Below, piece by piece: positions 22,158 through 42,811 of a DNA stretch of 64,000 nucleotides. The notes under the pieces are model-generated. The model did no database searches. It was not told the origin of the DNA and saw only the letters and a program-made list of their open reading frames with translations. The DNA comes from Burkholderia sp. HI2500 (GTDB taxonomy: Bacteria > Pseudomonadota > Gammaproteobacteria > Burkholderiales > Burkholderiaceae): the NCBI RefSeq assembly GCF_002223055.1, contig NZ_NKFL01000006.1:1550001-1614000 (forward strand), in the 5' to 3' direction. A program made the translations under genes and the position numbers. Numbering within the stretch: position 1 is the stretch's first letter; each line of letters opens with the position of its first letter.

Positions 22158-22556
22158 ATGGCAGATACGCTCACCGGCCCCGTCACGGCCGCCACGCTCG
22201 CGGCATTTTCCGACGCCTTCAACCGGCATGACGCCAATGCGTTGATGGGCTTCATGACCGAGGACTGCGTGTTCGACGCGGCCGGCGGCCCCGACATCCA
22301 CGGCACGCGCTTCGTCGGCCGTGACGCGGTACGCGCCGCGTTCGAAGCCGTGTTCAAGACCTTCCCCGACGCGCACTGGGGCCACGGCCGCCACACCGTC
22401 GCCGGCGAGCGCGGCGTCTCCGAATGGGTGTTCACGGGCACGCACGCCGAAGGCTGGCGCATCGAAGCCGAAGGCTGCGACCTGTTCGAATTCCGCGACG
22501 GACTGATCGCCGTCAAGCGTGCCTTCCGCAAGGAACGGCCGAAGCAGCCGGCCTGA
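22158..22556 (+). CDS. SnoaL/NTF2-fold protein
   Basis: The 132-residue protein starts at the ATG at 22158 after AGGAGA; an upstream in-frame extension looks non-coding. It has the SnoaL-like cone pattern: AAFSDAFNRHDANALMGFMTEDCVFD, FVGRDAVRAAFEAVFKTFPDAHW, and the final strand GCDLFEFRDGLIAVKRAFRKE. Proteins of this fold are small polyketide cyclases, isomerases or ligand-binding proteins; nothing specific can be assigned. It precedes xsc by 160 bp in the same direction, but xsc has its own promoter signals, so co-transcription is uncertain. Confidence 0.8.
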   Translation: MADTLTGPVTAATLAAFSDAFNRHDANALMGFMTEDCVFDAAGGPDIHGTRFVGRDAVRAAFEAVFKTFPDAHWGHGRHTVAGERGVSEWVFTGTHAEGWRIEAEGCDLFEFRDGLIAVKRAFRKERPKQPA

Positions 22557-22593
22557 GCGCACCGCCCGGGCCACCGTGCCCGGCACGCATTTT

Positions 22594-22613
22594 GAAACGA
22601 ATCGATTCATTTC
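22594..22613 (+). promoter_or_regulatory. 20-bp palindrome upstream of the xsc promoter
   Basis: GAAACGAATCGATTCATTTC is a near-perfect palindrome (9 of 10 positions per half). It is centred about 80 bp upstream of the likely xsc transcription start, where an activator could bind. The 10-mer half-site (ATTCGTTTCA on the other strand) recurs exactly in the iseJ/iseR intergenic region at 41923-41932. Confidence 0.5.
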
Positions 22614-22645
22614 ATTCCACATTTCCCGGCAGCGGGCGGAATGAC

Positions 22646-22690
22646 TTGACCGGCCTTCCCCAGCAAATAGCATCTGGAACAAGACGTTCC
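22646..22690 (+). promoter_or_regulatory. xsc promoter with GGAAC-N5-GTTCC operator at the start site
   Basis: TTGACC (22646-22651), a 16-bp spacer and TAGCAT (22668-22673) form a candidate promoter. Immediately after lies TGGAACAAGACGTTCC, containing the palindrome GGAAC-N5-GTTCC (22676-22690), which would cover the transcription start. The same palindrome with the same spacing and flanks lies between cobS and the IclR gene at 29336-29350. Confidence 0.5.
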
Positions 22691-22716
22691 GTTAATTGAA
22701 AAATCGGAGACAACCC

Positions 22717-24534
22717 ATGAGCGAACAATCCACTTCCCTGCGTGCATCGGCTAACGGTCCGCAGGACATGACGCCGTCCGAAGCCTTCGTCGAGACCCTC
22801 GCGGCCAACGGCGTGACCGACATGTTCGGCATCATGGGCTCCGCGTTCATGGATGCGATGGACATCTTCGCGCCGGCCGGCATCCGCCTGATTCCTGTCG
22901 TGCACGAACAGGGCGCGGGCCACATGGCCGACGGCTATGCGCGCGTATCGGGCCGCCACGGCGTCGTGATCGGCCAGAACGGCCCCGGCATCAGCAACTG
23001 CGTGACGGCGATCGCGGCCGCGTACTGGGCGCATAGCCCCGTCGTGATCGTCACGCCGGAAGCCGGCACGATGGGCATCGGCCTCGGCGGTTTCCAGGAA
23101 GCGAACCAGCTGCCGATGTTCCAGGAATTCACGAAATACCAGGGCCACGTCACGCACCCGGCGCGGATGGCCGAATTCACCGCGCGCTGCTTCGACCGCG
23201 CGCAGGCCGAGATGGGCCCGACCCAGCTGAACATCCCGCGCGACTATTTCTACGGCAAGGTCAAGGTCGAGATTCCGCAACCGCGCCGGCTCGATCGCGG
23301 CGCCGGCGGCGAACAGAGCCTCGACGACGCAGCCGCACTGATCGCGCAGGCAAAGTTCCCGGTGATCATCTCGGGCGGCGGCGTCGTGATGGCCGACGCG
23401 ATCGAGGAATGCAAGGCGCTCGCCGAACGGCTCGGTGCGCCGGTCGTCAACAGCTACCTGCACAACGACTCGTTCCCGGCGAACCATCCGCTGTGGTGCG
23501 GCCCGCTCGGCTACCAGGGCTCGAAAGCGGCGATGAAGCTGCTGTCGCGCGCGGACGTCGTGATCGCGCTCGGCTCGCGCCTCGGGCCGTTCGGCACGCT
23601 GCCGCAGCACGGGATGGACTACTGGCCGAAGGACGCGAAGATCATCCAGATCGACGCCGATCACAAGATGCTCGGCCTCGTGAAGAAGATCTCGGTCGGC
23701 ATCTGCGGCGACGCGAAGGCCGCGGCGGTCGCGCTCACGCAACGCCTCGAAGGTCGCACGCTCGCGTGCGACGGCTCGCGCGGCGAGCGCGCCGACCAGA
23801 TCGCGACCGAGAAGGCCGCATGGGAAAAGGAACTCGACGACTGGACGCACGAGCGCGACGCGTACAGCCTCGACATGATCGAGGAGCAGAAGCACGAGAA
23901 GCCGTTCAGCGGCGGCCAGTACCTGCATCCGCGCCAGGTGCTGCGCGAGCTCGAGAAGGCGATGCCCGAGGACGTGATGGTGTCGACCGACATCGGCAAC
24001 ATCAACTCGGTCGCGAACAGCTACCTGCGCTTCAACAAGCCGCGCAGCTTCTTCGCGGCGATGAGCTGGGGCAACTGCGGCTATGCGTTCCCGACGATCA
24101 TCGGCGCGAAGGTCGCCGCGCCGCACCGCCCGGCCGTGTCGTATGCGGGAGACGGCGCGTGGGGCATGAGCCTGATGGAAACGATGACCTGCGTGCGCCA
24201 CAACATCCCGGTCACGGCCGTCGTGTTCCACAACCGTCAATGGGGCGCGGAGAAGAAGAACCAGGTCGACTTCTACAACCGCCGCTTCGTCGCCGGTGAA
24301 CTCGACAACCAGAGCTTCGCGGCAATCGCGCGGGCGATGGGTGCGGAAGGGATCACGGTCGACCGCCTCGAGGATGTCGGCCCGGCGCTCAAGCGCGCGA
24401 TCGACATGCAGATGAACGAAGGCAAGACGACGATCATCGAGATCATGTGCACGCGCGAACTCGGCGACCCGTTCCGTCGCGATGCGCTGTCGAAGCCGGT
24501 GCGCATGCTCGACAAGTACAAGGACTACGTGTAA
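22717..24534 (+). CDS. xsc: Sulfoacetaldehyde acetyltransferase
   Basis: The 605-residue thiamine-diphosphate enzyme starts at the ATG at 22717 behind CGGAGA. It has the ThDP-activating Glu in VVHEQGAGHMADGYAR, and the GDG...N cofactor motif (GDGAWGMSLMETMTC to VVFHNRQWGAEKKNQ). FYNRRFVAGELDNQSFAAIARAMG near the C-terminus and the overall length match Xsc rather than acetolactate synthase. It converts sulfoacetaldehyde and phosphate to acetyl phosphate and sulfite in the cytoplasm, the convergence point for taurine and isethionate breakdown. Pta and a TauE/SafE exporter follow in the same direction, the standard partners for acetyl phosphate and sulfite. Confidence 0.94.
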   Translation: MSEQSTSLRASANGPQDMTPSEAFVETLAANGVTDMFGIMGSAFMDAMDIFAPAGIRLIPVVHEQGAGHMADGYARVSGRHGVVIGQNGPGISNCVTAIAAAYWAHSPVVIVTPEAGTMGIGLGGFQEANQLPMFQEFTKYQGHVTHPARMAEFTARCFDRAQAEMGPTQLNIPRDYFYGKVKVEIPQPRRLDRGAGGEQSLDDAAALIAQAKFPVIISGGGVVMADAIEECKALAERLGAPVVNSYLHNDSFPANHPLWCGPLGYQGSKAAMKLLSRADVVIALGSRLGPFGTLPQHGMDYWPKDAKIIQIDADHKMLGLVKKISVGICGDAKAAAVALTQRLEGRTLACDGSRGERADQIATEKAAWEKELDDWTHERDAYSLDMIEEQKHEKPFSGGQYLHPRQVLRELEKAMPEDVMVSTDIGNINSVANSYLRFNKPRSFFAAMSWGNCGYAFPTIIGAKVAAPHRPAVSYAGDGAWGMSLMETMTCVRHNIPVTAVVFHNRQWGAEKKNQVDFYNRRFVAGELDNQSFAAIARAMGAEGITVDRLEDVGPALKRAIDMQMNEGKTTIIEIMCTRELGDPFRRDALSKPVRMLDKYKDYV

Positions 24535-24559
24535 CGCCGCGTCGCCGACGCACCCCGTT

Positions 24560-24642
24560 GCCGGCCGCGCGCCCCTCTCGCGCGGCCGGCCCTCCGGCCG
24601 GACGCCGTGCCCCGTGCGGGCCGCCGCATCCGGCCGTTTTTT
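24560..24642 (+). terminator. Hairpins plus T-run between xsc and pta (attenuator-like)
   Basis: A perfect 12-bp stem (GCCGGCCGCGCG at 24560-24571 with its complement at 24579-24590) is followed by CGGCCGGA (24595-24602) pairing with TCCGGCCG (24629-24636), then six T residues. This looks like an intrinsic terminator inside the operon, 22 bp before the pta start codon, and would lower pta-tauE expression relative to xsc. Confidence 0.6.
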
Positions 24643-24663
24643 CTTTTCTTACCCGAGCGAACG

Positions 24664-25698
24664 ATGAAAGCCCTCGACCGCATTCTCGACGCCGCGCGCC
24701 GCCAGCCGATGCGCATCGCACTGTGCGAAGCCGACGATCCGCGCGTGCTGCAGGCCGCCGCGCGCGCGACGCGCGACGGCATCGCCCGCATCGTGCTGGT
24801 CGGCAACCGTGCGGCCATTCACGCGGCGGCCGCGCGCGACGCGATCGATCTCGACGGCATGACGCTCGTCGATCCGGCCACCGCCACGCAACGCGACGCC
24901 TATGCCGACACGCTGCACGCGCTGCGCAAGAGCAAGGGCATGACGGCCGATGCCGCGCGCGACGCGGTGCTCGACCCGCTCTGCCACGCGAACCTGATGG
25001 TGCGGCTCGGCGATGCGGACGGCTCGGTCGCGGGCGCCGTGCATGCGACGGCCGACGTCGTGCGCGCGGCAATCCAGCTGATCGGCGTCGATCCGGCGTT
25101 CCGGATCGTGTCGAGCTTCTTCCTGATGATGCTGTGCGAGCCGTTTCACACGATCAAGGGCGGGCTGATCTTCTCCGACTGCGCGCTGGTCGTCGATCCG
25201 GACGCCGATCAGCTCGCCGAGATCGCGATGGCTGCCGCCGACAGCGCGCACGCGCTGCTCGGCGAGGCGCCGCGCGTGGCGATGCTGTCGTTCTCGACGA
25301 GCGGCAGCGCGCATCACGCGGCGGTCGACAAGGTGACGGCCGCGACCGCGCACGTGCGCGAACTCCGCCCCACCCTCGCGATCGACGGCGACGTGCAGCT
25401 CGACGCGGCGATCGTCGCGGAAATCGCCGAGCGCAAGATCGCGCATTCACAGGTGGGCGGCCACGCGAACGTGCTCGTGTTCCCGAGCCTCGAAGCCGGC
25501 AACATCGGCTACAAGCTCGCCGAACGGATCGGCCGCGCGAAGGCCGTCGGCCCGCTGCTGCAAGGGCTGCGCCGCCCCGCGAACGACCTGTCGCGCGGCT
25601 GCAGCGCCGACGACGTGTATCACGTGATCGCGGCGACCACCGTGCAGGCGCAGGCGGCCGCGCAGCGCGCCGCAACCGGCGAGGCCGCACACGCATGA
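24664..25698 (+). CDS. pta: Phosphate acetyltransferase of the sulfonate pathway
   Basis: The 344-residue protein is the short, catalytic-domain-only form of Pta usual in xsc operons. It begins MKALDRILDAARRQPMRIALCEADDPRVLQAA, and includes VSSFFLMML, VAMLSFSTSGSA and NVLVFPSLEAGNIGYKLAERIG, all typical of the Pta/PlsX family. It moves the acetyl group of acetyl phosphate from Xsc onto CoA to give acetyl-CoA. It lies 129 bp after xsc beyond a terminator-like structure. Its stop codon overlaps the tauE start by 4 bp (ATGA), indicating translational coupling. An unrelated housekeeping Pta elsewhere in the genome is likely. Confidence 0.92.
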   Translation: MKALDRILDAARRQPMRIALCEADDPRVLQAAARATRDGIARIVLVGNRAAIHAAAARDAIDLDGMTLVDPATATQRDAYADTLHALRKSKGMTADAARDAVLDPLCHANLMVRLGDADGSVAGAVHATADVVRAAIQLIGVDPAFRIVSSFFLMMLCEPFHTIKGGLIFSDCALVVDPDADQLAEIAMAAADSAHALLGEAPRVAMLSFSTSGSAHHAAVDKVTAATAHVRELRPTLAIDGDVQLDAAIVAEIAERKIAHSQVGGHANVLVFPSLEAGNIGYKLAERIGRAKAVGPLLQGLRRPANDLSRGCSADDVYHVIAATTVQAQAAAQRAATGEAAHA

Positions 25699-26462
25699 CA
25701 GCCGACAAACTGGCGATCCTGATCGCGGTGATCGGCGCCGGCAGCTATTTCCAGACCGTCACCGGGTTCGGGCTCGGGATGATCGTGATGGGCGCGACGA
25801 GCGGCTTCGGGCTCGCGCCGCTTGCCACCGTCGCCACGCTGATGAGCGTCGTGTCGCTCGCGAACGGCGCGACCGCACTGCCCGGCCGGCTGCATCACAT
25901 CGACTGGCGCGCGGTCGGCGCGGCGACGCTCGGCATCCTGCCGTCGGTCGTCGCGGGCGTGCTGCTGCTCGAATGCCTGAGCCGATCGGCGGCTGACCTG
26001 CTGCAACTGATCCTCGGCGCGGTCGTGCTGTACGGCGGCCTGAGCGCGGCGCTGCGCCCGACGCCGCTCACCGAGCGCTCGGACAACCGCAGCTTCTTCG
26101 TCAGCGGCCTGTTCGGCGGCTTGCTGAGCGGGATGTTCGGCGTGTCGGGGCCGCCGCTGATCTTCCAGTTCTACCGGCAGCCGCTGACGCTCGTGCAGAT
26201 CCGCTGCGCGCTGATCGTGCTGTTCACGACGACCTCGGCCACGCGCGTGCTGTACAGCGCATGCGAAGGCCAGCTCGATCGCGACATCTGGCTGCTGGCC
26301 GCGATCGCGACGCCGGTCGTGATGCTGACGACGGTGGCCGCCCGCCAGTACCCGCCGCCGCTGTCGCCGGTCGCGCTGCGCCGGCTTGCGTTCGGCGTGC
26401 TGATGGCGATCGGTATCGGGCTGATCGCGACGTCGCTGCCGCCGCTGCTGCATCGCGCTTGA
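25695..26462 (+). CDS. tauE: TauE/SafE-family sulfite exporter
   Basis: This 255-residue inner-membrane protein has about 8 predicted membrane segments in two repeats, with the TauE/SafE motif GFGLGMIVMG in the first and SGLFGGLLSGMFGVSGPPLIFQFY in the second. The family exports sulfite or related small anions released by sulfonate desulfonation. It overlaps pta by 4 bp and is the last gene of the xsc-pta-tauE operon, so sulfite export is a strong contextual inference. A sulfite dehydrogenase locus lies 5 kb away, so the cell may both export and oxidise sulfite. Confidence 0.88.
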   Translation: MTADKLAILIAVIGAGSYFQTVTGFGLGMIVMGATSGFGLAPLATVATLMSVVSLANGATALPGRLHHIDWRAVGAATLGILPSVVAGVLLLECLSRSAADLLQLILGAVVLYGGLSAALRPTPLTERSDNRSFFVSGLFGGLLSGMFGVSGPPLIFQFYRQPLTLVQIRCALIVLFTTTSATRVLYSACEGQLDRDIWLLAAIATPVVMLTTVAARQYPPPLSPVALRRLAFGVLMAIGIGLIATSLPPLLHRA

Positions 26463-26517
26463 TGTCGCGCGGCACGCGCCGCGTCGAACCGCCTTGTTCC
26501 CGGCGATCGATTCGGAC

Positions 26518-26535
26518 TCGACGCATCCGCGTCGA
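26518..26535. terminator. Small hairpin between convergent tauE and cobT
   Basis: TCGACGC and GCGTCGA form a 7-bp stem around ATCC in the gap between the two convergent genes. It could act as a weak terminator on either strand; there is no T-run. Confidence 0.35.
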
Positions 26536-26550
26536 ATGCGGTCACCCGCG

Positions 26551-28272
26551 TCACCGCCGCGCGCCGATCCATCCGGCGATTTCAACGAGCCGCTTCATGT
26601 CGGGCGCCGACGCAAGATCGATCGCCAGCCGGTGCCGGTAATACGGGCCGAGATCGAGCCCGACACCCAACCCGAGCACTTCGACGCGGCCCGCCGACTC
26701 CTGGCGCGCAACCACCTGCTTCAGGTGGTTATCGAGGTAGAACGGATCGTTCGCGAGCGCCGTCGCGCCGTCCATCGGGCTGCCGTCGGAGATCACAACA
26801 AGGATCTTGCGCGCCTCCGGCCGCGCCGCGAGCCGCGCGCACGCCCATTCGACCGCTTCGCCGTCCACACCTTCGCGGAACAGATCAGCCTTGAACAGCG
26901 CGGCAATGCCCGTGCGCGCATGCCGCCAGCGGGTATCCGCGTCCTTGAACACCAGGTGGCCGGTTTCGTTGAGCCGGCCCGGATGGCGCGGCTTGCCGCG
27001 CGCGAGCCAGTCCTGCCGCGCACGGCCGCCGTTCCAGGCGAGCGTCGTGAAGCCGAGCACTTCGGTTGCGAGACCGGCGGCGTCGCCCGCGCGGGCCAGC
27101 GTGTCGACCATCAGCGCGACGCCGTCGATCCACGTCTTCATCGACCCCGAGCAGTCGATCAGGAACGCGAGCGCGCAGTCGGCATGCGGCCGCACGCGTT
27201 CGAGCCGGAACAACCGCCGTTCGGCCGGCGAGCTGACGAGTTGCGCGAGCCGGCGGCCGTCGAGGCGGCCATGCTCCTCGCCGAACGACCAGCCGTCGGC
27301 TTGCGGCACGACGAGCGCCGCGCGCAGCACACGCGCGAGCCGCGTGACGTTGATCCGCTGCGCGGCGACCTGGGCGTCGAGCCGGTCGCGATACTCGCGC
27401 AGCAGTGCCGCGCGGATCTGCGCGGCCGGTCGAAGCTCGCGATCGTAGCGCGTCGTGTATGCACGGTAGACGGCGTCGCCGCCTTGCAGCACGACGCTGT
27501 CGCCCGTCTCCACGAGTGCCGGCATATCGATGCCCGTCTCGTCGAAATCGACCCAGAGCGAGAAATTCGTCAGTGCATCGTCCTGCTCGCGTGCGTCTTC
27601 CGTCTCCGTTTCCACGACGGCTGCACGCGCATCGCGGATCATCGCCGCAATGCACTTCGCGAGCGCGAGTGCATGTTCCGCAAAGGCGCGCTGATCGTGC
27701 CGGCACCGCTTGAGCCCGGCAAGCTGCACGCCGATCTCGGGCACGATCGCCGCGCGCGATGCTTCGATCAGGTCTTCCGTCTCTTCGAGCACGGGCCAGC
27801 CCGTCAGCCGCGACCATGCGATCTGCGCGACCGTGTACACGAGAATCCCGACATGCGTATCGGCCTGCCCCGACCGGTGAAACGCGCGTGACCAGGTCTC
27901 GAAGCGATGACGCAGGTTCTGCACGACACCGCGCATGGCAGGCGGCGCGAGCGACTCGCAGCGCAGTTGCTCGAGCATCTCGAACAGCACGCGTTCGACC
28001 GGATCGTCTCCGGACAGCGCGCGATGCAGGTCCGCATCGGAATGCAGGATACGCAGCGCGGCACCGTCGGCCGCGCCGCGCCATGACGCGAGATCGTCGT
28101 CGGCGGCCTGCGCGCGCAGGTGCGGCGCATGGATCGGCAACGGCCGCGAGTCGCGGCACACGCGGCCCGCCCGGTAATGCAGCGCCGCGTCACGCGTCAG
28201 CGCGCGTACCGTCGACGCACCCAGCGCTTCGCGCGCCGACGCGCGGCGCGCGGCGTCGCGATCGGCGCTCAC
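26551..28272 (-). CDS. cobT: Cobaltochelatase CobT-like protein with VWA domain
   Basis: The 573-residue protein starts at GTG 28272, which overlaps the cobS stop codon by 4 bases (GTGA). This is better supported than a much longer upstream frame that is only the cobS shadow. The C-terminal half is a von Willebrand A domain with the metal-binding motif LIDCSGSMKTWIDG and ILVVISDGSPMDG. The N-terminal half matches CobT (VQNLRHRFETWSRAFHRSGQADTHVGILVYTVAQI). Only a short acidic stretch (ETETEDAREQDD) replaces the long acidic linker I associate with alphaproteobacterial CobT. With CobS it forms the ATP-driven ring that powers CobN for cobalt insertion in aerobic B12 synthesis. CobN is not in the window. 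Confidence 0.82.
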   Translation of the reverse strand: MSADRDAARRASAREALGASTVRALTRDAALHYRAGRVCRDSRPLPIHAPHLRAQAADDDLASWRGAADGAALRILHSDADLHRALSGDDPVERVLFEMLEQLRCESLAPPAMRGVVQNLRHRFETWSRAFHRSGQADTHVGILVYTVAQIAWSRLTGWPVLEETEDLIEASRAAIVPEIGVQLAGLKRCRHDQRAFAEHALALAKCIAAMIRDARAAVVETETEDAREQDDALTNFSLWVDFDETGIDMPALVETGDSVVLQGGDAVYRAYTTRYDRELRPAAQIRAALLREYRDRLDAQVAAQRINVTRLARVLRAALVVPQADGWSFGEEHGRLDGRRLAQLVSSPAERRLFRLERVRPHADCALAFLIDCSGSMKTWIDGVALMVDTLARAGDAAGLATEVLGFTTLAWNGGRARQDWLARGKPRHPGRLNETGHLVFKDADTRWRHARTGIAALFKADLFREGVDGEAVEWACARLAARPEARKILVVISDGSPMDGATALANDPFYLDNHLKQVVARQESAGRVEVLGLGVGLDLGPYYRHRLAIDLASAPDMKRLVEIAGWIGARR

Positions 28273-29258
28273 CGCCCCGCCCCCGGCTCGCCGCCGCCGG
28301 CCCGCGACGCAACCGCCAGCTCCTCGCCGAAACAGCGCTGGTAATACTCGGCGACGACCGGCCGCTCCGCGTCGTCGCACTTGTTCAGGAACGTGAGCCG
28401 GAACGCGAGCGCCGGATCGCGGAAGATCTGGCAGTTCTCGGCCCAGTTGATCACCGTGCGCGGCGACATCAGCGTCGACAGGTCGCCGGTCGCGAAGCCG
28501 TTGCGCGTCAGCTCCGCGAGGCTCACCATCGATTCGAGCAGCGGGCGGCCGGCTTCGTCCGCGAGTTCCGGCACGCGCGCCCGCACGATGCCGATCTCCT
28601 CGTCGCGCGGCAGGTAGTCGAGCGTCGCGACCACGTTCCAGCGGTCCATCTGCGCGTGGTTGAGCATCTGCGTGCCGTGGTAAAGCCCGTTCAGGTTGCC
28701 GAGCCCGACCGTGTTCGCGGTCGCGAACAGCCGGAACGACGGATGCGGGTGAATCACGCGGTTCTGGTCGAGCAGCGTGAACTTGCCGTCGCGCTCCAGA
28801 ATCCGCTGGATCACGAACATCACGTCGGGCCGCCCCGCGTCGTATTCGTCGAAAATCAGCGCGACCGGGCGCTGCAATGCCCACGGCACGATTCCTTCCT
28901 GGAATTCGGTCACCTGCACGTCGTCGCGCACGACGATCGCATCCTTGCCGACGAGGTCGAGCCGGCTGATGTGGCCGTCGAGGTTCACGCGCACGCACGG
29001 CCAGTTCAGCCGTGCCGCGACCTGTTCGATATGCGTCGACTTGCCGGTGCCGTGCATCCCCTGCACGAGCACGCGGCGGTTGCGTGCGAAGCCCGCGAGG
29101 ATCGCGAGCGTGACGTCCGGGTTGAAACGGTATGCATCGTCGATATCGGGTACGTGATCGTCGCGCGTGCTGAACGCGGGCACCATCAGGTCCGAATCGA
29201 ACCCGAACCGTTCGCGGACCGACACCATGCAGTCCGGCTTGTTCGCCACCCCATCCAT
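28269..29258 (-). CDS. cobS: Cobaltochelatase AAA+ ATPase subunit CobS
   Basis: The 329-residue MoxR-like AAA+ protein starts at the ATG at 29258 (MDGVANKPDCMVSVRERFG). Walker A is GMHGTGKST and Walker B is ALIFDEYDAG. The blocks DVMFVIQRILERDGKFTLLDQNRVIHPHPSF and FATANTVGLGNLNGLYHGTQ are diagnostic of CobS. Sensor residues follow in MDRWNVVATLDYLP. It hydrolyses ATP for cobalt chelation with CobT and CobN. It is coupled to cobT by a 4-bp overlap and is divergent from the IclR gene across 187 bp that contain a perfect palindrome. Confidence 0.88.
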   Translation of the reverse strand: MDGVANKPDCMVSVRERFGFDSDLMVPAFSTRDDHVPDIDDAYRFNPDVTLAILAGFARNRRVLVQGMHGTGKSTHIEQVAARLNWPCVRVNLDGHISRLDLVGKDAIVVRDDVQVTEFQEGIVPWALQRPVALIFDEYDAGRPDVMFVIQRILERDGKFTLLDQNRVIHPHPSFRLFATANTVGLGNLNGLYHGTQMLNHAQMDRWNVVATLDYLPRDEEIGIVRARVPELADEAGRPLLESMVSLAELTRNGFATGDLSTLMSPRTVINWAENCQIFRDPALAFRLTFLNKCDDAERPVVAEYYQRCFGEELAVASRAGGGEPGAGR

Positions 29259-29335
29259 TGCGTTGCGCTCCTGTCGTTGCTGTCGTTGCTGGCCGCGCGG
29301 GCATCGATCTTCGCGCCCGCGCCGGTCGCGTTTAT

Positions 29336-35180: not shown

Positions 35181-36602
35181 TCAACGCGGCGGATAGGCGA
35201 GCAGTTCGCTGTCGTCGAGATGCTCGCGGCGGCTGCGGCGCGTGAGCCCGTAGGCGACGACCAGTACGCCGAGGCTGGCGACACCGAGCCACAGCGGCTT
35301 GCGCTGGTCGGGGATGAACGCCATCGCGACGAGGATGCCGACCATCCCGATGATCGCGACCCAGGTGAGGTACGGATACGCCCACATCTTGACGCGCAGC
35401 TTGCTGGCGGCCACCGGGTCGAGGCGCTTGCGCAGGCGCAGTTGCGAGAACGCGATCAGCACGTACACGAACAGCGCGACGGTGCCGTACGAATTGACGA
35501 GGAACGCGAACACGGTATCGGGCGACACGTACGACATCACCACCGACACGTAACCGAACACCGTGCCGAGCAGGATCGCGCGCACCGGCACGCCGCGCTT
35601 GTTGACCTTCGCGAGCGCGGCCGGCGCGTCGCCGTGGCGGGTCAGCGCGAACAGCATCCGCGACGCCGCATAGAGGCCCGAGTTGAGCGCGGACAGCACG
35701 GCCGTCAGCACGATCGCGTTCATCACGTTGGCGGCAGCCGGCAGGCCCATCACTTCGAGTGCGCTCACGTACGGCGTGGCCATCTGATGCGAGTTCCACG
35801 GCACCAGCGCCACGACGAGCGCGACCGAGCCGACGTAGAACACCAGCACGCGCGTGATCACCGAATTGGTGGCCTTCGCAACCGCTTTCGCCGGTTCCTT
35901 CGCCTCGGCCGCCGCGATCGTGACGATCTCGGCGCCGAAGTAGAAGCCGGTCGCCGCGACCGCCCCGCTCATCACCGGCCCGATGCCGAGCGGCATGAAG
36001 CCGCCGTGGCCGAGCAGCGTCGGCAGCACCGACGTCGTGTGCATCGACGCGGGCCACAGGCCGAGCACGTAGAGGCCGCCGAGGAACAGGAACACCATGA
36101 TCGCGCCGACCTTGATCGACGAGAACCAGAACTCGAACTCGCCGTAGCTGCCGACCGAGATCAGGTTCGTGAGCGTCAGCACGACCAGCAGCGCGAGGCT
36201 GATGATCCATGCGGGCGTATCGGGTAGCCAGAACTGGATCAGCTTGGCGCCGGCCACCGCTTCGAGCGCGACGACGATCACCCAGAAATACCAGTACATC
36301 CAGCCGGTCAGGAAGCCCGCCATCTTGCCGGGCCCGCGCCAGTTGCCGAACGCGAGCCGCGCGTACTCGTAGAACGAACCGACGGCCGGCATCGCGCATG
36401 CCATCTCGCCGAGCATCCGCATCACGAGCACGACGAGCCCGCCCGTGATCAGGAACGACAGGATCGCGGCCGGCCCGGTCTGCTGAATCACCACGCCGCT
36501 GCCGACGAACAGCCCGGCACCGATCACGCCGCCAAGCGCGATCATCGTCATGTGGCGCTGCTTGAGCCCACACTTCAGGTCACTCTGATTCGAGGGTTGC
36601 AT
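35181..36602 (-). CDS. APC-family amino acid permease
   Basis: The 473-residue, about 12-helix protein starts at the ATG at 36602 after TGGAGAAG. The core begins LKQRHMTMIALGGVIGAGLFVGSGVVIQQTGPAA, the APC consensus, and continues with AVGSFYEYARLAFG and NSGLYAASRMLFALTRHGDAP. Family members import amino acids such as GABA, proline or aromatic amino acids with protons. The flavoprotein gene lies 180 bp upstream on the same strand, and soeABC and xsc are close, so taurine (an aminosulfonate) is a contextual candidate substrate. Sequence alone does not fix the substrate. Confidence 0.85.
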   Translation of the reverse strand: MQPSNQSDLKCGLKQRHMTMIALGGVIGAGLFVGSGVVIQQTGPAAILSFLITGGLVVLVMRMLGEMACAMPAVGSFYEYARLAFGNWRGPGKMAGFLTGWMYWYFWVIVVALEAVAGAKLIQFWLPDTPAWIISLALLVVLTLTNLISVGSYGEFEFWFSSIKVGAIMVFLFLGGLYVLGLWPASMHTTSVLPTLLGHGGFMPLGIGPVMSGAVAATGFYFGAEIVTIAAAEAKEPAKAVAKATNSVITRVLVFYVGSVALVVALVPWNSHQMATPYVSALEVMGLPAAANVMNAIVLTAVLSALNSGLYAASRMLFALTRHGDAPAALAKVNKRGVPVRAILLGTVFGYVSVVMSYVSPDTVFAFLVNSYGTVALFVYVLIAFSQLRLRKRLDPVAASKLRVKMWAYPYLTWVAIIGMVGILVAMAFIPDQRKPLWLGVASLGVLVVAYGLTRRSRREHLDDSELLAYPPR

Positions 36603-36782: not shown

Positions 36783-38198
36783 TCAGGGCTTTTCGTCGTT
36801 CCTGAAGTAAGACAGGTAGAGCATCCGTTGCCCGAGGCGCCGGAACGGCGCGAACGGGTGGCCAGGCAGCGGCGACGTGAAGATCGGCAGCGTCTGGCGT
36901 GCGCCCTTCCCCGCGATCTGCTCGGCCAGCCGGCGGCCGGCCTGCTGCGAGTACGACACGCCGTTGCCGCCGTAGCCGAGCGCGTAGTACACCGACTGCC
37001 GCGGGTCGGGCTGGCACACGCGCGGCATCATGTCGTGGCTCACGTCCACCCAGCCCCACCATGAATAGTCGATCTCCACGCCGCGCAGCGCGGGAAACTT
37101 GCGCGCCATCCCGTCCTTCAGCAATTCGAAGTGACGCGGGTTCGGCGCATCGTCACCGGTGATCGCGCTGCGGCTGCCGATCTGCAAGCGGCGATCCGGC
37201 AGGAAGCGATAGTAGAAGCGCAGCGTGCGCGTATCGGTCAGCACCTGCGTCGTGCGGAAATTGCATGCGTCGATCTCCGCGTCGGTGAGCGGGCGCGTGA
37301 CCATCGAATTCGACAGGATCGGCATCACCTTGCTGCGCAGCGACGGATGCAGCGTCTGCGCGGTATACGCACCGGTCGCGATGCCGACCGCACGGGCCCG
37401 CACGACGCCGCCGGGCGTGCGCAGGTGGTGCACGCCGTCGATCGTCTCGAAGCCGAGCACCGGGCTGCTCGTATGCACCTTCGCGCCGGCTTCGCGCGCG
37501 AGGCGCAGGTAGCCGAACGCGAGCTTCAGCGCGTGGATGCCGATGCCTTCCGGCTCGTGCAGCGCGCCGGCCGCTTCGTGGTCGTTGATGAATTCGCGAC
37601 GGAAGGTTTCGGCGCTCAGCAGTTCGGACGGATAGCCGAACACGTCCTTCCACACCTTCGCCTCGGCCGCGAGCTTGGCCATGATGCGCGGACGATGCGC
37701 GATCAGGAAATGGCCGCCCGGCTGCGGGTCGCAGTCGATTTCCGCCACGAGCGACTTGAAGTTCTCGAAGCCTTCGAGGATCTCGTCGTGCATCTTCAGC
37801 GCGACGTCCTTGCCCCAGCGCTCGATCCACTGCGAGCGCGACAGCCGGCCCGATGCGTTCTGCCCCTGCCCGCCGTTGCGGCTGCTGCAGCCCCAGCTCG
37901 TGCGGTTGGCTTCCAGCACGACGGCCTTGATGCCGTGGTCCCGCGCGAGGCACAGCGCGGTCGCGAGGCCCGTGTAGCCGGCGCCGATGATCGCGACGTC
38001 GACATCGAGATCGCGCGTCACGGGGCCGTCGTCGGGCGGCGGGGTGCCGGCCGTCGCGACCCAGTAGGTCGGCGCGTACTGCCGGCCGCACCCGGGCCCC
38101 GGCGACACGAGCGGATCGTAGGTCGGGTCGTAACGCGTGTCGTTCGGCCGGCCGCCGTTGAAACCGCTCGCGGTGCGTTCGATGGAAGGGGTCGACAT
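36783..38198 (-). CDS. FAD-dependent amine oxidoreductase (DAO superfamily, TauY/PuuB-like)
   Basis: The 471-residue protein starts at the ATG at 38198 after GGAGGT. An N-terminal extension of about 55 residues (YDPLVSPGPGCGRQYAPTYWVATAG) precedes the FAD-binding motif VDVAIIGAGYTGLATALCLARDHG, then CSSRNGGQGQNASG, as in glycine/amine oxidases. The C-terminus has VYYALGYGGNGVSYSQQAG. The length and N-terminal extension agree with what I recall of TauY, the large subunit of taurine dehydrogenase, which yields sulfoacetaldehyde and ammonia. No small TauX subunit is adjacent, so a PuuB-like polyamine-pathway oxidase is the main alternative. The permease follows on the same strand. Confidence 0.6.
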   Translation of the reverse strand: MSTPSIERTASGFNGGRPNDTRYDPTYDPLVSPGPGCGRQYAPTYWVATAGTPPPDDGPVTRDLDVDVAIIGAGYTGLATALCLARDHGIKAVVLEANRTSWGCSSRNGGQGQNASGRLSRSQWIERWGKDVALKMHDEILEGFENFKSLVAEIDCDPQPGGHFLIAHRPRIMAKLAAEAKVWKDVFGYPSELLSAETFRREFINDHEAAGALHEPEGIGIHALKLAFGYLRLAREAGAKVHTSSPVLGFETIDGVHHLRTPGGVVRARAVGIATGAYTAQTLHPSLRSKVMPILSNSMVTRPLTDAEIDACNFRTTQVLTDTRTLRFYYRFLPDRRLQIGSRSAITGDDAPNPRHFELLKDGMARKFPALRGVEIDYSWWGWVDVSHDMMPRVCQPDPRQSVYYALGYGGNGVSYSQQAGRRLAEQIAGKGARQTLPIFTSPLPGHPFAPFRRLGQRMLYLSYFRNDEKP

Positions 38199-38712
38199 GC
38201 TCAGACCTCCGACGCGGGCTGGCCTGCCACGCCGCAACGGGCGCGCGAGGCGATTCGACTGACTGATGCGGGGCGCACGCTCGCCGCACGGGCGAATGCT
38301 GCCGACTGCCTGTTGGTCATGCCTGTCTCCTGATCGTTCTCTTCGGGTCGATCGTGTGCAGATGCTTCAATGCGGCGATCTGTCGAGGAAAGTGTAGGCA
38401 GGCCGATTTGTCGCAGGTAGGGCCAGTCGACCGGATTCGCTTGGACCAGCGTGTGGGCGGCCGAATGGCGGGCAGCCGGTGGTGGGTCGCGATCGGCAAG
38501 GGGTGCGGCGCGGGCCTGTCACCACCGGGAAATCGATCAGCCGGCAGCATCGGACGACCTGCTGACGGCAACGGTCAGCGGCATAGGCATGGGCATGGGC
38601 ATGGGCGTAGCCGTGGCCGTCGTCGTGGGCTCGGGTGTCGGCTCAGGTGTGGGCACGGCACCGACCGGCGACCGCCCCGCCGATACGACCCCGCGCCCCG
38701 CCCCACCCGCTG
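38199..38712. other. 514-bp intergenic region
   Basis: No gene is supported between the flavoprotein start and the MFS stop codon. The right part carries a degenerate hexanucleotide repeat (listed separately). The left 150 bp should hold the promoter of the flavoprotein gene; I see no clear operator there. Confidence 0.5.
38581..38658 (+). repeat. Degenerate hexanucleotide tandem repeat
   Basis: About 13 hexamer units of the type GCATGG/GTGTGG run head to tail, with three perfect GCATGG copies at 38587-38604. It lies 55 bp past the MFS stop codon and is not inside a supported gene. An overlapping open frame would give a Gly-Met/Val-Gly run that I do not believe is expressed. Confidence 0.6.
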
Positions 38713-40017
38713 TCACATCGCCCGCACCGCGACGCCGTCCACGCCGCCGCGCTTCTCGATCGCCCGCGCGGACACGATCGACAGGAGTGCAGACAACATC
38801 ACGTAAACCCCGACGAGCCACGGCGCCCCGCCGTTCACGCGCAGCAGCGCGGTCGCGACGATCGGCGTGAGCCCGCTCGCGAAGATGCCCGACACCTGGT
38901 AGACGAACGAAATCCCCGTGTAACGCACGTTCGCGTCGAACAGCTCCGCGAACAGCGCGGCTTCCGGCCCGTACGCCATCGCGTAGAAGATCCCGAACGG
39001 GATCACCAGCGCGAGCCACACGGCGAGCAGGTGGGTCGACTGCGTCTGCAGCAGCCAGAACGCGGGCAGCACCGACAACCCGCACAGCGTCGCGCCCCAC
39101 CGGTACACGCGCGCACGGCCGAGCCGGTCGGACAGCCCGCCGAACACCGGGATGAACACGCACATCACGACGGCCGCGCTCATCACGCCGAGCAGCGCGT
39201 CGCCGCGCGAGATCGACAGGTTGCGCGTCATGTAGCCGATCGAGAACACCGCGAACACGTTGAAGAACACGCCGTCGATATAACGCGCGCCCATCCCGAG
39301 CAGGATCGCCCGACGATAGTTGGCGAGCAACTCGACGACCGGCAGCTTCGTATCGCGCCGCTGGCGCTTGAGCGCGACGAACTCGGGCGTATCGGCCACC
39401 CGCGTGCGGATGTAGAAGCCGACCGCCACCAGCAGCAGCGACGCCGCGAACGCGACGCGCCAGCCCCACGCGAGAAAGGCGGCGTCCGGCAGCGCACGCG
39501 ACAGCGCCGCGACCACGCCGGCCGCGAGGCACAGCCCGATCGCGAGCCCGATCTGCGGCAGGCTCGCATACAGCCCGCGCCGGTGCGGCGGCGCGTACTC
39601 GTAGGCCATCAGCACCGCGCCGCCCCACTCGCCGCCGAGGCCGATGCCCTGCAGCACGCGCAGCGTCAGCAGCAGCACCGGCGCCCACATGCCGATCTGC
39701 GCATAAGTCGGCAGGAACGCGACGCCGGCCGTCGACACGCCCATGATCAGCATCGTCAGGATCAGCGCGGACTTGCGCCCGACGCGGTCGCCGAGATGGC
39801 CGAACAGCAAGCCGCCGAGCGGGCGCGTGATGAAGCCGACCGCGAACGTCGCATACGCGAGCATCGTCGACACGAACGCGTCGCCGGCCGGAAAGTACTG
39901 CTTGTCGAACACGATGCCGGCGACCACGCCGTACAGGAAAAAGTCGTACCACTCGACGGTCGCGCCGATCACGCTGGCCGCGGCCACGCGTCGGACGACC
40001 CGGGAATCGATTGCCAT
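38713..40017 (-). CDS. iseU: MFS metabolite:H+ symporter, probable isethionate transporter
   Basis: The 434-residue, 12-helix protein starts at the ATG at 40017 after TGGAGAAG. The MHS-family signatures are ASVIGATVEWYDFFLYG, GGLLFGHLGDRVGRK between helices 2 and 3, and RVLQGIGLGGEWGGAVLM. It imports an organic anion with protons. The upstream gene on the same strand is a GMC dehydrogenase and the next one, divergent, is an IclR regulator. This trio matches the iseU-iseJ-iseR isethionate cluster I recall from Cupriavidus necator, where IseU is an MFS carrier. Other sulfonates or carboxylates are possible substrates. Confidence 0.7.
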   Translation of the reverse strand: MAIDSRVVRRVAAASVIGATVEWYDFFLYGVVAGIVFDKQYFPAGDAFVSTMLAYATFAVGFITRPLGGLLFGHLGDRVGRKSALILTMLIMGVSTAGVAFLPTYAQIGMWAPVLLLTLRVLQGIGLGGEWGGAVLMAYEYAPPHRRGLYASLPQIGLAIGLCLAAGVVAALSRALPDAAFLAWGWRVAFAASLLLVAVGFYIRTRVADTPEFVALKRQRRDTKLPVVELLANYRRAILLGMGARYIDGVFFNVFAVFSIGYMTRNLSISRGDALLGVMSAAVVMCVFIPVFGGLSDRLGRARVYRWGATLCGLSVLPAFWLLQTQSTHLLAVWLALVIPFGIFYAMAYGPEAALFAELFDANVRYTGISFVYQVSGIFASGLTPIVATALLRVNGGAPWLVGVYVMLSALLSIVSARAIEKRGGVDGVAVRAM

Positions 40018-40144
40018 GCGAGCTTCTCCAGGTAAGGATGCGCCGCAACCTGCCCCGGCGCCGTACCGGCGGGGGCATCGATGAACGCGCGGCGGCCGTC
40101 CGGGCGCAGGCGCACGGGCCACGCGGGTGATGCGTGGCGACGCC

Positions 40145-41800
40145 CTACGCGAGCGCCTCGGCGGCCGGCGCGACGCTGTGGCCGCGATCGGCCGCGCGCG
40201 CGTCCTCGAGGATCATGTCGGACGCCTTCTCGGCGACCATCACGATCGGCACGTTGGTATTGCCCGATACGAGGGTCGGCATGATCGAGCAGTCGACCAC
40301 GCGCAACCCGCGCGTGCCGTACACGCGCAGCCGCTCGTCGACGACCGCGAGCGGATCGCTCGCGACGCCCATTTTCGCGGTGCCGGACGGATGGAAGATC
40401 GTCTGCCCGTATTCCCGGCAGAACTCGAGCAGCTCGTCGTCAGTCTGCGCGTCCGCGCCCGGCCGCACCTCGCGCTTCATCAGCCGCGCCATCGGCTCGG
40501 TGGCCGCGACGCGGCGCGCGAAGCGCACGCCGGCCACCGTCGTGCGGCGGTCGCGCTCGGTGTCGAGATAGTTCGGCTGGATCGACGGCGCGTCGCGCGC
40601 ATCGTCGGTGCGGATGCGCACGGTGCCGCGCGATTCGGGCCGCAGCTGGCAGATCGAATACGTGCAGCCGGGAAACGGATGCACGCTGCCGCCGGCCGAA
40701 TCGGCCGACAGCGTCGAGAAATGGAACTGGATGTCCGGCGTCGCCGATTCGTCCGGCAGCGCACGGCAGAACATCCCGCCCTGGTTGATGCCGATCGCGA
40801 GCGGGCCGCCGCGGAACAGCGCCCACTGCAGCCCCATCTTCGCGCGACCGATCCACGAGTGCAGTTCGTCATTGGTCGTGATCGGCTTCGTCACTTCATA
40901 GATCAGACGAATCTGCAGGTGATCCTGCAGGTTCTCGCCGACGCCCGCGCGATCGGCGACGACCGGAATCCCGTGCCGGTTCAAGAGCGCGGCCGGCCCG
41001 ACGCCCGACACCTGCAGCAGTTGCGGCGATTGCAACGCGCCGGCCGCGAGAATCACCTCGCGCAGCGCGCGCACCTCATGCACCTTGCCATGCTGGACGT
41101 ACCGCACGCCGGACGCCTGCGCGCCGTCGAACAGCACCTTCAGCGCCTGCGCATCGGTTTCGACATGCAGGTTCGGCCGCCCGCGCGCGGGCTTCAGGTA
41201 CGCCACCGCCGTCGAGCAGCGCAGCCCGTTGCGCGTGGTGAGCTGGTAATAGCCGACGCCTTCCTGGTCACCCGTGTTGAAATCGTCGACCGTGCGCACG
41301 CCGAGCCGGTTCGACGCGGCCACGAACGCATCGACGAGTTCGTGCCGCTGCCGGATCGCGGACGCCCACAGCGGGCCGCCGGTGCCGCGCGTGGGCCCGT
41401 CGCCGAGCGTGTTGTGTTCGAGCTTGCGGAAATACGGCAGGCACTCGCGCCAGCTCCAGCCGCGATTGCCGAGTGCGGCCCAATGGTCGTAGTCCTGCTG
41501 CTGCCCGCGCACGTAGATCAGCCCGTTGATCGAGCTGCAGCCGCCGAGCGTGCGGCCGCGCGGCCAGTACAGGCGGCGGTTGTGCATGTTCGGATCGGGA
41601 TCGGTGTGGAAGCCCCAGTTGTACACGGGATGAAACATCGTCTTGCCGTACCCGATCGGCACGTGGATCCACATGTAGCGGTCGGCGGGGCCCGCTTCCA
41701 GCAGGCACACCGTATGGCGGCCGCCGTCGGACAGCCGGTTGGCGAGGACGCAACCGGCCGATCCCGCGCCGACCACGACATAGTCGAAGCTGCGTGTCAT
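40145..41800 (-). CDS. iseJ: GMC-family flavoprotein dehydrogenase, probable isethionate dehydrogenase
   Basis: The 551-residue protein begins MTRSFDYVVVGAGSAGCVLANRLS with the FAD Rossmann motif, and has the GMC signatures YWPRGRTLGGCSSINGLIYVRG and GALQSPQLLQVSGVGP. The C-terminal HPSGTAKMG holds the active-site His and MPTLVSGNTNVPIVMVAEKASD ends the chain. This is the choline/alcohol dehydrogenase group, acting on a primary alcohol with electrons to the respiratory chain. Context (MFS carrier, IclR regulator, and xsc on the same DNA) makes isethionate oxidation to sulfoacetaldehyde the best fit. Choline dehydrogenase BetA is less likely because no betaine genes adjoin it. Confidence 0.72.
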   Translation of the reverse strand: MTRSFDYVVVGAGSAGCVLANRLSDGGRHTVCLLEAGPADRYMWIHVPIGYGKTMFHPVYNWGFHTDPDPNMHNRRLYWPRGRTLGGCSSINGLIYVRGQQQDYDHWAALGNRGWSWRECLPYFRKLEHNTLGDGPTRGTGGPLWASAIRQRHELVDAFVAASNRLGVRTVDDFNTGDQEGVGYYQLTTRNGLRCSTAVAYLKPARGRPNLHVETDAQALKVLFDGAQASGVRYVQHGKVHEVRALREVILAAGALQSPQLLQVSGVGPAALLNRHGIPVVADRAGVGENLQDHLQIRLIYEVTKPITTNDELHSWIGRAKMGLQWALFRGGPLAIGINQGGMFCRALPDESATPDIQFHFSTLSADSAGGSVHPFPGCTYSICQLRPESRGTVRIRTDDARDAPSIQPNYLDTERDRRTTVAGVRFARRVAATEPMARLMKREVRPGADAQTDDELLEFCREYGQTIFHPSGTAKMGVASDPLAVVDERLRVYGTRGLRVVDCSIMPTLVSGNTNVPIVMVAEKASDMILEDARAADRGHSVAPAAEALA

Positions 41801-41841
41801 TCGTGTCTCCGTTCCGGGGTTTTGGAAAAATCCGGTATGTT

Positions 41842-41932
41842 TTGTCCAAATTTATTGAGCACACGGAACGCATACAAGCCGATTTATTGTCCACGCCGCG
41901 AATGTGGTACAAAAACCGTTCAATTCGTTTCA
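41842..41932. promoter_or_regulatory. Direct repeats and shared half-site in the iseJ/iseR intergenic region
   Basis: TTGTCCA occurs at 41842-41848 and 41887-41893, and ATTTATTG at 41850-41857 and 41882-41889. ATTCGTTTCA at 41923-41932 is an exact copy of one arm of the palindrome upstream of xsc. The region is AT-rich and separates the divergent dehydrogenase and IclR genes, so these are likely operator elements. Confidence 0.45.
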
Positions 41933-41986
41933 TTTCCGTCGCACACACCATGCCGGGACGCACGCCGATCCCGACGGAGGAGACAC

Positions 41987-42811
41987 ATGCGCGAAACCGC
42001 CCCCGCGCCGCCCGATGGCGCGCCCGCCGACGACGCGCGCGTCCTGCGCGCGCTCGCGGTGCTCGAAGCACTCGCGTCGGCCGGCCAGCCCTACACGCTG
42101 TCGCAGCTCGCCGCGCGGCTGCATATCCCGAAGGCGACGCTGCTGCGCCTGATCGAATCGCTCGAAACGCGCGGCTACGTGATCCACATGCCCGACTCGC
42201 GCGGCCACGATCGCGGCATCGCGCTGGGCCCGCGCGCCGCGCAGTTCGCGCTCGCGGCGCTGTCGAACAACACCTTCACGCGCGGCTGCCGCTCGGTGCT
42301 GCGCTCGCTCGTCGACGTGCTTGGCGAAACCTGCAACCTCACCGCGCTCGACGGCGACACGGTGCTGTACGTCGAACGCGTCGAGACGACCGAGCCGCTA
42401 CGGCTCGAGATGCGGCCCGGCATGCGCGTGCCGCTGCATTGCACGGCGAGCGGCAAGCTGTTCCTGTCGCAGATGAATGCGCTGGAGCGCAACGCGATGC
42501 TCGCGCGGCTCACGCTGAAGAAGATGACCTACCGGACGCTGACCGATGCGCAGTTGCTCGCGGCCGAGCTCGACCGGCTCGCCGCGCGCGGCGTCGGGAT
42601 CGACAACGAGGAGTTCGTGCGCGGGATGGTGGCGGTTGCGGTGCCGGTGAAAGAGGCAGCAAGCGGCCGTGTGCTCGCGGCGCTCGCCGTGCATGCGCCG
42701 ACCGCGCGCGCGACGCTCAACGACCTGCTGGAGAACGTGCCGAAGATGCGGGAAGCGGCTACGCGGCTCGCGCCGCTGCTGCATGCGGCTGAGGGTGTGC
42801 CGCCGGGGTGA
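41987..42811 (+). CDS. iseR: IclR-family regulator, probable regulator of isethionate use
   Basis: The 274-residue protein starts at the ATG at 41987 after GGAGGAGA; a much longer open frame upstream is the antisense shadow of the dehydrogenase. The winged helix is YTLSQLAARLHIPKATLLRLIESLETRGYVI. The effector domain contains LGETCNLTALDGDTVLYVERVE and GVGIDNEEFVRGMVAVAVPV, closely parallel to the IclR protein at 29446. It is divergent from the GMC dehydrogenase and MFS genes, as expected for their regulator. A half-site shared with the xsc promoter hints that it also acts there. Confidence 0.8.
   Translation: MRETAPAPPDGAPADDARVLRALAVLEALASAGQPYTLSQLAARLHIPKATLLRLIESLETRGYVIHMPDSRGHDRGIALGPRAAQFALAALSNNTFTRGCRSVLRSLVDVLGETCNLTALDGDTVLYVERVETTEPLRLEMRPGMRVPLHCTASGKLFLSQMNALERNAMLARLTLKKMTYRTLTDAQLLAAELDRLAARGVGIDNEEFVRGMVAVAVPVKEAASGRVLAALAVHAPTARATLNDLLENVPKMREAATRLAPLLHAAEGVPPG

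Follow-up and report, generated by a model that had tools for sequence, protein, structure and literature searches.

Among described systems, the closest to the locus discussed here, a set of genes predicted to break down two-carbon (C2) sulfonates that spans about 26 kb (16.9 to 42.8 kb) of a 64,000-nucleotide window on a Burkholderia chromosome (G000:C6:1550001-1614000; 8.26-Mb assembly), are the alphaproteobacterial tauABC-tauXYZ-xsc-pta clusters. In Aminobacter pUSP1, the annotated cluster runs from a MocR-like regulator through tauABC, an NTF2-like gene, a flavin adenine dinucleotide (FAD) protein gene, xsc, and yeiH to pta. The window shares with these clusters the MocR-like regulator, an NTF2-fold TauX, an FAD-type TauY, Xsc, and Pta. 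It differs in having an APC permease in place of tauABC, tauX and tauY genes that are split apart, and TauE in place of the YeiH-type exporter; in addition, it contains soeABC, a trio of GMC, major facilitator superfamily (MFS), and IclR genes, and a cobST-like pair. Another relative is found in Ruegeria pomeroyi DSS-3, whose xsc gene is presumably SPO3561. In its description (PMC4334477), which does not name xsc, genes annotated as sulfite dehydrogenase also lie beside Pta and TauR, and feeders for isethionate and taurine are present, but the genes occupy three places, soeCBA-pta-tauR (SPO3557-3560 and SPO3562), iseJKLM-R (SPO2355-2359), and tpa-tauABC (SPO0673-0676), and isethionate enters by a TRAP carrier. 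The IseJ/IseU-Xsc isethionate route (PMC6453916) also consists of a flavin dehydrogenase and an MFS carrier that feed Xsc. Finally, B. cenocepacia BCAM1182-83 (tauX, xsc), apparently the same gene pair as in the window, is listed in PMC6829993 among genes of human-host adaptation.

The window contains what is quite probably one inherited locus for C2 sulfonate dissimilation, with regulation through TauR boxes and a CobST-like chaperone as its proposed further parts. Its left part, on the plus strand, has the order tauR, a GH92 insert, tauX, xsc, pta, tauE; of the genes that follow, the cobT-like and cobS-like genes come first, then a second IclR gene, then the soe genes, permease, tauY, MFS, and GMC genes, and last an IclR gene, with the two IclR genes lying on the plus strand and all the others on the minus strand (Table 1). 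Gene identities at the family level were computed directly by scoring Pfam and NCBIfam models against their curated cut-offs. A sequence-only reading of this DNA had named Xsc, Pta, TauE/SafE, a SoeABC-like enzyme, an amine flavoprotein with a permease, and the MFS-GMC-IclR trio, and the models place every one of these genes where it had put them. Its interpretation largely holds, although it omitted tauR, tauX, the CobST-like pair, and a third TauR-like box elsewhere in the genome; its left end, 22158, is the ATG of tauX, a gene it did not name. Xsc is unambiguous at the family level, scoring 1083 bits with the TIGR03457 equivalog model (cut-off 676), and its acetyl phosphate-forming reaction is predicted from that identity.

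The comparison with related genomes that the sequence-only reading had called for shows conserved gene order and joint presence. In a sample of 61 Burkholderia genomes, drawn evenly and including the window's own, Xsc is present in 17, and a TauY-type DAO protein is present in the same 17. A GMC ortholog (at least 88% identity) and CobS are each found in 16 of these, CobS occurring in no other genome of the 61, while SoeA is found in 23 genomes, including all 17 with Xsc. The sole Xsc-positive genome short of both GMC and CobS (G031) is an 82% complete assembly of about 1100 contigs, one of which ends inside the MFS gene. Gene order is conserved across the Burkholderia neighbourhoods fetched, of which two (G028, G031) are broken by contig ends and one (G049) was covered to 20 kb. 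B. multivorans has the whole gene set at 87-96% identity; in Paraburkholderia phymatum pBPHY01 the set is rearranged, with tauR-tauX-tauY-permease contiguous. In Paraburkholderia xenovorans LB400 (L112), tauX, tauY, the permease, pta, tauE, cobST, GMC, and MFS genes are all no more than about 10 kb from xsc. Among the matches listed, the DAO protein has its nearest named relative in B. aenigmatica (98%) and SoeA in B. contaminans and B. lata (99%), so the window probably comes from a species of the cepacia complex. The co-inheritance of the locus genes is not chance, and the locus has been passed on as a unit in 17 of the 61 genomes.

The pathway proposed for the locus, in which substrates, transport directions, and operon structure are predicted from gene families and neighbours, would begin with entry of taurine through the APC permease and its oxidation to sulfoacetaldehyde by TauXY. 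A second compound, most likely isethionate, would enter through the MFS transporter and be converted to sulfoacetaldehyde by the GMC flavoprotein. Xsc would cleave sulfoacetaldehyde to acetyl phosphate and sulfite, and Pta would convert acetyl phosphate to acetyl-CoA. The sulfite would either leave through TauE or be oxidised to sulfate by SoeABC, with the electrons passing to quinone. TauR is proposed to act on two promoters, those of tauX-xsc-pta-tauE and tauY-permease-soeABC, and TauX and TauY would therefore be made together despite the gap of about 14 kb between their genes; the IclR regulator would serve the GMC/MFS arm. A third-box operon on another contig probably supplies taurine from N-acyltaurines, and the CobST-like pair would be a dedicated ATP-driven remodelling chaperone, most likely for Xsc, rather than a cobaltochelatase. 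If this is true, cepacia-complex Burkholderia and relatives inherit as one block the means to turn two C2 sulfonates, and perhaps a third, into acetyl-CoA and sulfate, together with a readable regulator box.

The taurine arm was assigned from gene neighbours and co-occurrence. In a sample of 399 Burkholderiales genomes (Xsc at E<=1e-150, DAO at E<=1e-130, GMC at E<=1e-190), Xsc is present in 49 and the TauY-type DAO protein in 19, of which 18 also have Xsc (Fisher p 3e-17). SnoaL homologs adjoin the DAO gene in 8 Burkholderiales loci of other genera. Because of this adjacency, the co-occurrence of DAO with Xsc, and the Aminobacter cluster, the SnoaL gene is read as TauX and the DAO gene as TauY; the two form a TauXY pair in a tau/xsc setting, with dehydrogenase activity predicted. 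They are separated in the other Burkholderia neighbourhoods compared as they are in the window. An open reading frame for TauX between tauY and the MFS gene was searched for and not found, TauX being the SnoaL gene 5' of xsc. These findings agree with the sequence-only reading, which had taken the amine flavoprotein as a sulfonate feeder. The kinship with polyamine oxidases that would have spoken against it was not borne out: among the 120 DAO matches listed, IMG names 14 as taurine dehydrogenase large subunit and 1 as gamma-glutamylputrescine oxidase. A polyamine or choline oxidase reading of the DAO protein was rejected, since its relatives adjoin TauX and Xsc. The APC permease adjoins tauR-tauX-tauY in G373 (Cupriavidus group; 76% identity) and in P. 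phymatum (77%), and GabP is listed in Burkholderia TauR regulons (PMC5320631). tauR itself neighbours tauX/tauY in other genera, at 62% identity in G373 and 77% in P. phymatum.

TauR is described as a MocR-type activator whose operator consensus is a direct repeat of CTGGACYTAA (PMC5320631). The regulator gene at the left end of the locus encodes the GntR and aminotransferase domains of this type and has tau genes beside it. One 33-base element, CTGGYCCAAG-N13-CTGGCSCTAC plus further common bases, lies 5' of both tauX and tauY. The pattern, which was built from these two sites so that the comparison is descriptive, has two matches in the window, whereas 100 shuffles gave none. Conservation is the stronger test: both boxes are present in all 17 superlocus genomes with 0-1 mismatch to CTGGNCCAAG-N13-CTGGCNCTAC. 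The box at tauX has 3 mismatches to CTGGACYTAA in each half; a search of the window with the plain CTGGACYTAA found no site at <=1 mismatch, and looser scans yielded conserved pairs. The pairing of TauR with these boxes is a prediction. A weaker element 5' of xsc (22674) was dropped, as it is not found in G053, G042, G058, and G059.

A third box lies elsewhere in the genome in 16 of the 17 superlocus genomes (not in G042), with 1 mismatch in 13 and 2 in 3, and no site with its sequence is listed in the 24 Burkholderia genomes without Xsc that were searched. Another 2-mismatch site was found both with and without the locus. In 11 other Burkholderiales genomes searched, a perfect box lies directly 5' of tauX in G373, and the other ten have 2-mismatch sites or none. 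The third box in G043 is followed by genes for a DUF3311 protein and a sodium:solute symporter. The window's genome is near-identical at its third box (L190 5473-10032; G000:C7, about 1066272-1070831), where symporter, Amidohydro_3, and CobW/COG0523 genes stand in a row; in the near-identical L191, DUF3311 is the first gene of this row. Amidohydro_3 proteins are taken here to belong to COG1574. Comamonadaceae TauR regulons contain COG523 and COG1574 proteins (PMC5320631), and in R. pomeroyi naaT is annotated as a putative metallochaperone and naaS as an N-acetyltaurine amidohydrolase (PMC4334477). Rhodococcus opacus has relatives of the symporter (45%) and of the amidohydrolase (35%) close to xsc. 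Together, these observations suggest that the third-box operon probably supplies taurine from N-acyltaurines. As for the second IclR gene of the locus, 34 of 49 Burkholderiales xsc loci have a gene 41-59% identical to it nearby, a comparison in which any IclR member may match.

The surprising part of the locus, and the one worth following, is the CobST-like pair. Like CobST of cobaltochelatase (PDB 9ujv and 9uka; S. meliloti cobST), it combines an AAA+ motor bearing Walker motifs with a VWA adaptor. The pair differs from cobaltochelatase CobST in its Xsc-linked CobT clade, its metal-ion-dependent adhesion site (MIDAS), its independence of CobN, and its tie to sulfonate genes. The CobT-like protein scores 284 bits with the cobaltochelatase model TIGR01651, far from the cut-off of 759. 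The CobS-like protein, which has Walker A and B motifs and matches the solved CobS (PDB 9ujv) with 491 bits, falls just under the cut-off of TIGR01650 (Table 1), and none of the 61 Burkholderia genomes exceeds it. The MIDAS of the CobT-like protein reads DCSGS instead of DNSGS; DCS[GA]S is present in 91 of 94 Xsc-linked CobT rows versus DNS[GS]S in 5 of 5 canonical ones, near copies being included among the rows. In a tree of 39 of the 99 rows (34 Xsc-linked and 5 canonical), the Xsc-linked clade separates from canonical CobT at 100/100, with L182 on a very long branch. Of 20 Burkholderia genomes tested, 19 have CobN (at E<=1e-50, with CobS at E<=1e-60): all 10 that lack Xsc and CobS, and 9 of the 10 that carry the locus. 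The exception is G042, in which the CobST-like pair is present but CobN was not found. The presence of the pair is therefore independent of CobN, and a role for it in B12 synthesis there is unlikely.

The pair follows Xsc well beyond Burkholderia. In the 80 nearest named Xsc loci, taken with flanks of up to 10 kb, relatives of CobS (at least 50% identity) and CobT (at least 30%) occur together in 65, with CobS <=11.4 kb from xsc; these 65 loci span Beta- and Gammaproteobacteria and Rhodococcus. Of the 15 loci without the pair, 7 lie on stretches <20 kb, and one (L135, the G218 contig) has CobS about 31 kb from xsc. Within Burkholderiales, CobS is found in 15 of the 399 genomes, 13 of which have Xsc (Fisher p 3e-11) and 12 TauY. 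In G143 and G229 the CobT is closer to that of S. meliloti than to the window's, and in G189 the match is partial (142 residues, near a contig end); with these three set aside, all 12 CobS genomes have both Xsc and TauY. A connection of cobaltochelatase, cobS, or cobT with xsc, sulfoacetaldehyde, or taurine is not reported in the literature searched, which lacked the primary papers on Xsc and isethionate clusters.

By analogy with CbbQO, which serves Rubisco, and NorQD, which serves nitric oxide reductase, it is about an even call that the pair is a new and widespread MoxR/VWA chaperone branch for sulfonate degradation, which would activate, load, or repair Xsc or another pathway enzyme by ATP-driven remodelling, and that the cobaltochelatase label is wrong. 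Xsc is the most likely client as a best guess, since it is the shared member of the loci with the pair, SoeA is rarely near (within reach in 6 of the 80 nearest named Xsc loci), and in Rhodococcus opacus the pair lies near a class III aminotransferase and an alanine dehydrogenase, the 16.6 kb examined there containing no match to TauXY. That the client is instead SoeABC or TauXY is a doubtful but serious contender. Chaperones of this type serve enzymes with complex cofactors, as SoeABC is, TauY accompanies CobS in 12 of the 15 Burkholderiales genomes with CobS, and in G373 the pair adjoins tauXY and is 24 kb from xsc. Against SoeABC stands its scarcity among the 80 Xsc loci, 65 of which hold the pair, along with six SoeA genomes without Xsc that have no CobS match; against TauXY stands the arrangement in R. 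opacus. With Xsc as the client, a thiamine-diphosphate enzyme would have an unforeseen need for ATP-driven maintenance. On the reading given here, the recurrence of CobN-independent cobaltochelatase-like genes poses a testable question, namely which sulfonate-degrading enzyme depends on an AAA+/VWA helper.

The GMC, MFS, and IclR genes form a module of flavin dehydrogenase, transporter, and regulator that is linked to Xsc, as the sequence-only reading had supposed from their likeness to an isethionate cluster. The GMC protein is found in 34 of the 399 Burkholderiales genomes, 29 of which have Xsc (Fisher p 6e-26), and at five loci where it lies apart from xsc (L197-L200, L206) the same MFS and IclR genes adjoin it. 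In G373 the GMC protein is 74% identical to the window's and its MFS neighbour 66%; there and at the four other loci, as in the window, the IclR gene is transcribed divergently from the GMC gene. In four loci from as many other families (L061, L071, L079, L088), GMC proteins of 64-69% identity lie <=2.5 kb from xsc. In a tree of 51 of 62 matched segments, built without a certified BetA reference, the Burkholderia and Paraburkholderia locus GMC proteins form one clade (100/100); all xsc-linked rows are weakly grouped against own-genome paralogs (53/60), and one long-branch paralog falls among the xsc-linked rows. A second GMC clade, 51-55% identical, occurs near xsc in Pandoraea, Caballeronia, Trinickia, Azoarcus, and others (L108-L111, L114-L116, L118-L120, L128, L136, L139, L146, L147, L164). 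Since MFS and IclR neighbours accompany the second-clade GMC in L110 (Pandoraea) and L111 (a strain in the tree's Caballeronia group), Burkholderia is not alone in having joint feeders near xsc. The earlier view that known clusters usually hold only part of such a gene set is right for R. pomeroyi, but similar joint loci are found in Paraburkholderia and Pandoraea.

Isethionate is the most likely substrate of the GMC/MFS arm, judging from these neighbours. IseJ is presumably a GMC protein as well. It is improbable that the core of the locus serves taurine alone and that the trio, a chance neighbour, degrades an unrelated alcohol. The GMC protein does narrowly pass the broad choline dehydrogenase subfamily model of NCBIfam (615 versus 605 bits), so the kinship with choline oxidases that the sequence-only reading had seen as a threat is present in part, but it fails the BetA equivalog (501 versus 732). 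Of its own-genome paralogs, 4 of 8 were scanned, and all fall under the BetA cut-off, one passing the broad choline model. Five of the 34 GMC genomes lack Xsc, and the GMC gene is about 32 kb from xsc in G373 and on another contig in G327, G297, and G198. These points for a taurine-only locus are met by the other 29 genomes, by the joint presence or absence of GMC and Xsc in Burkholderia, and by the close spacing of GMC and xsc in the four other families.

For sulfite, both the TauE exporter and SoeABC are encoded in the locus. The soe genes specify a molybdopterin A, a 4Fe-4S B, and a DmsC-type C subunit in order, and by family and by the published gene order of R. pomeroyi, SoeABC fits a sulfite dehydrogenase. 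Because soeCBA-pta-tauR has been published, a sulfite dehydrogenase beside this pathway is not new. A different role for SoeABC, whether oxidation of formate, thiosulfate, or some other compound or acceptance of electrons from TauXY, is quite unlikely. IMG names relatives at 81-85% identity SoeA in 4 of the 120 matches listed, the other named ones being mostly formate dehydrogenase or molybdopterin oxidoreductase; the best NCBIfam model is PhsA, far under its cut-off; and bisC, dmsC, and hybA in Rhodobacterales TauR regulons are read in PMC5320631 as possible electron acceptors of TauXY. The R. pomeroyi soeCBA annotation beside pta and tauR, with the four matches named SoeA, nevertheless argues for sulfite. 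Two SoeA matches in other genomes, G053:C2:1013747-1016749 and G042:C1:352284-355250, each hold one TGA.

It is very improbable that the CobST-like pair is a real cobaltochelatase placed here by chance: its score with canonical CobS, its near miss of TIGR01650, and CobN in 9 of 10 tested superlocus genomes would suit one, but CobN is also present in every tested genome without a CobS match and was not found in one with the pair, and the separate CobT clade, the altered MIDAS residue, and the pair's recurrence in 65 of 80 Xsc loci all speak for a role tied to sulfonates.

Several observations weigh against the reading of the locus as one unit for sulfonate breakdown. The Fisher p-values treat related genomes as independent and so overstate their independence. 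NCBIfam calls the MocR gene PdxR (367 bits, cut-off 320), each half of the boxes has 2-3 of its 10 positions unlike the published TauR consensus, and the reversed pattern gives 0-5 matches per genome at <=2 mismatches. The family labels of the GMC and DAO proteins are broad, and the characterised IseJ of Cupriavidus necator H16 may fall in either xsc-linked GMC clade. CobS is not found in G202 and G387, which have Xsc (80-82%) and TauY, nor in 36 of the 49 Xsc genomes of Burkholderiales; because of these genomes the pair is not strictly required by Xsc. Five of the GMC genomes lack Xsc, as noted above, and no MFS match was found in the locus of G042. SoeA occurs without Xsc in 6 of the 23 SoeA-positive Burkholderia genomes, so that SoeABC is not tied to this pathway. 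In two of these six, G012 and G045, soeABC and a DUF2891 gene keep the same order, and G045 additionally keeps an IclR relative (74%) and a fragment of the second IclR gene, remnants that look like loss of the rest of the locus.

The features of the locus are given in Table 1. Gene starts were chosen among in-frame candidates, that of the CobT-like gene being uncertain.

Table 1. Genes and TauR-like boxes of the locus, in window coordinates
Feature	Position	Strand	Model or domain evidence
tauR, MocR-type regulator (GntR + aminotransferase domain)	16889..18415	+	Pfam GntR + Aminotran_1_2
GH92 glycosidase, insert between tauR and tauX, outside pathway	18897..21782	+	Pfam GH92
TauR-like box CTGGCCCAAG-N13-CTGGCGCTAC, ~95 bp 5' of tauX	22031..22063	+	
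tauX, SnoaL/NTF2-fold small subunit of predicted taurine dehydrogenase	22158..22556	+	Pfam SnoaL_2
xsc, sulfoacetaldehyde acetyltransferase	22717..24534	+	TIGR03457 equivalog
pta, phosphate acetyltransferase	24664..25698	+	PTA_PTB; TIGR00651 353 bits, cut-off 311
tauE, TauE/SafE sulfite exporter	25695..26462	+	PF01925 72 bits, cut-off 32.6
CobT-like VWA protein, Xsc-linked clade (start uncertain)	26551..28272	-	CobT_C 154 bits
CobS-like AAA+ ATPase	28269..29258	-	TIGR01650 537 bits, cut-off 559
IclR-type regulator 2	29455..30207	+	IclR_C + HTH
soeC, membrane anchor of putative sulfite dehydrogenase	30240..31187	-	DmsC PF04976 53 bits, cut-off 22.3
soeB, 4Fe-4S subunit	31229..31975	-	Fer4_11 and related domains
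soeA, molybdopterin subunit	31992..34928 (open reading frame open to 35024)	-	molybdopterin domains
APC permease, GABA-permease-like, proposed taurine importer	35181..36602	-	AA_permease; GABAperm 548 bits, under cut-off 678
tauY, FAD DAO-family large subunit of predicted taurine dehydrogenase	36783..38198	-	DAO 194 bits
TauR-like box CTGGTCCAAG-N13-CTGGCCCTAC, ~219 bp 5' of tauY	38417..38449	-	
iseU-like MFS transporter	38713..40017	-	MFS/Sugar_tr
iseJ-like GMC flavoprotein, proposed isethionate dehydrogenase	40145..41800	-	GMC_oxred_N/C
iseR-like IclR-type regulator, divergent from GMC gene	41987..42811	+	IclR_C 126 bits

Genes of other kinds lie within or beside the locus. The GH92 gene occupies the tauR-tauX gap in five genomes (the window's own, G043, G015, G056, and G026), and a GH92 match is absent from the remaining superlocus neighbourhoods fetched; one also lies nearby in G012, a genome without the xsc part. 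A DUF2891 gene at 43290-44312 adjoins the IclR gene and is kept there in most of the Burkholderia neighbourhoods compared, as well as in G012 and G045, both without the xsc part.

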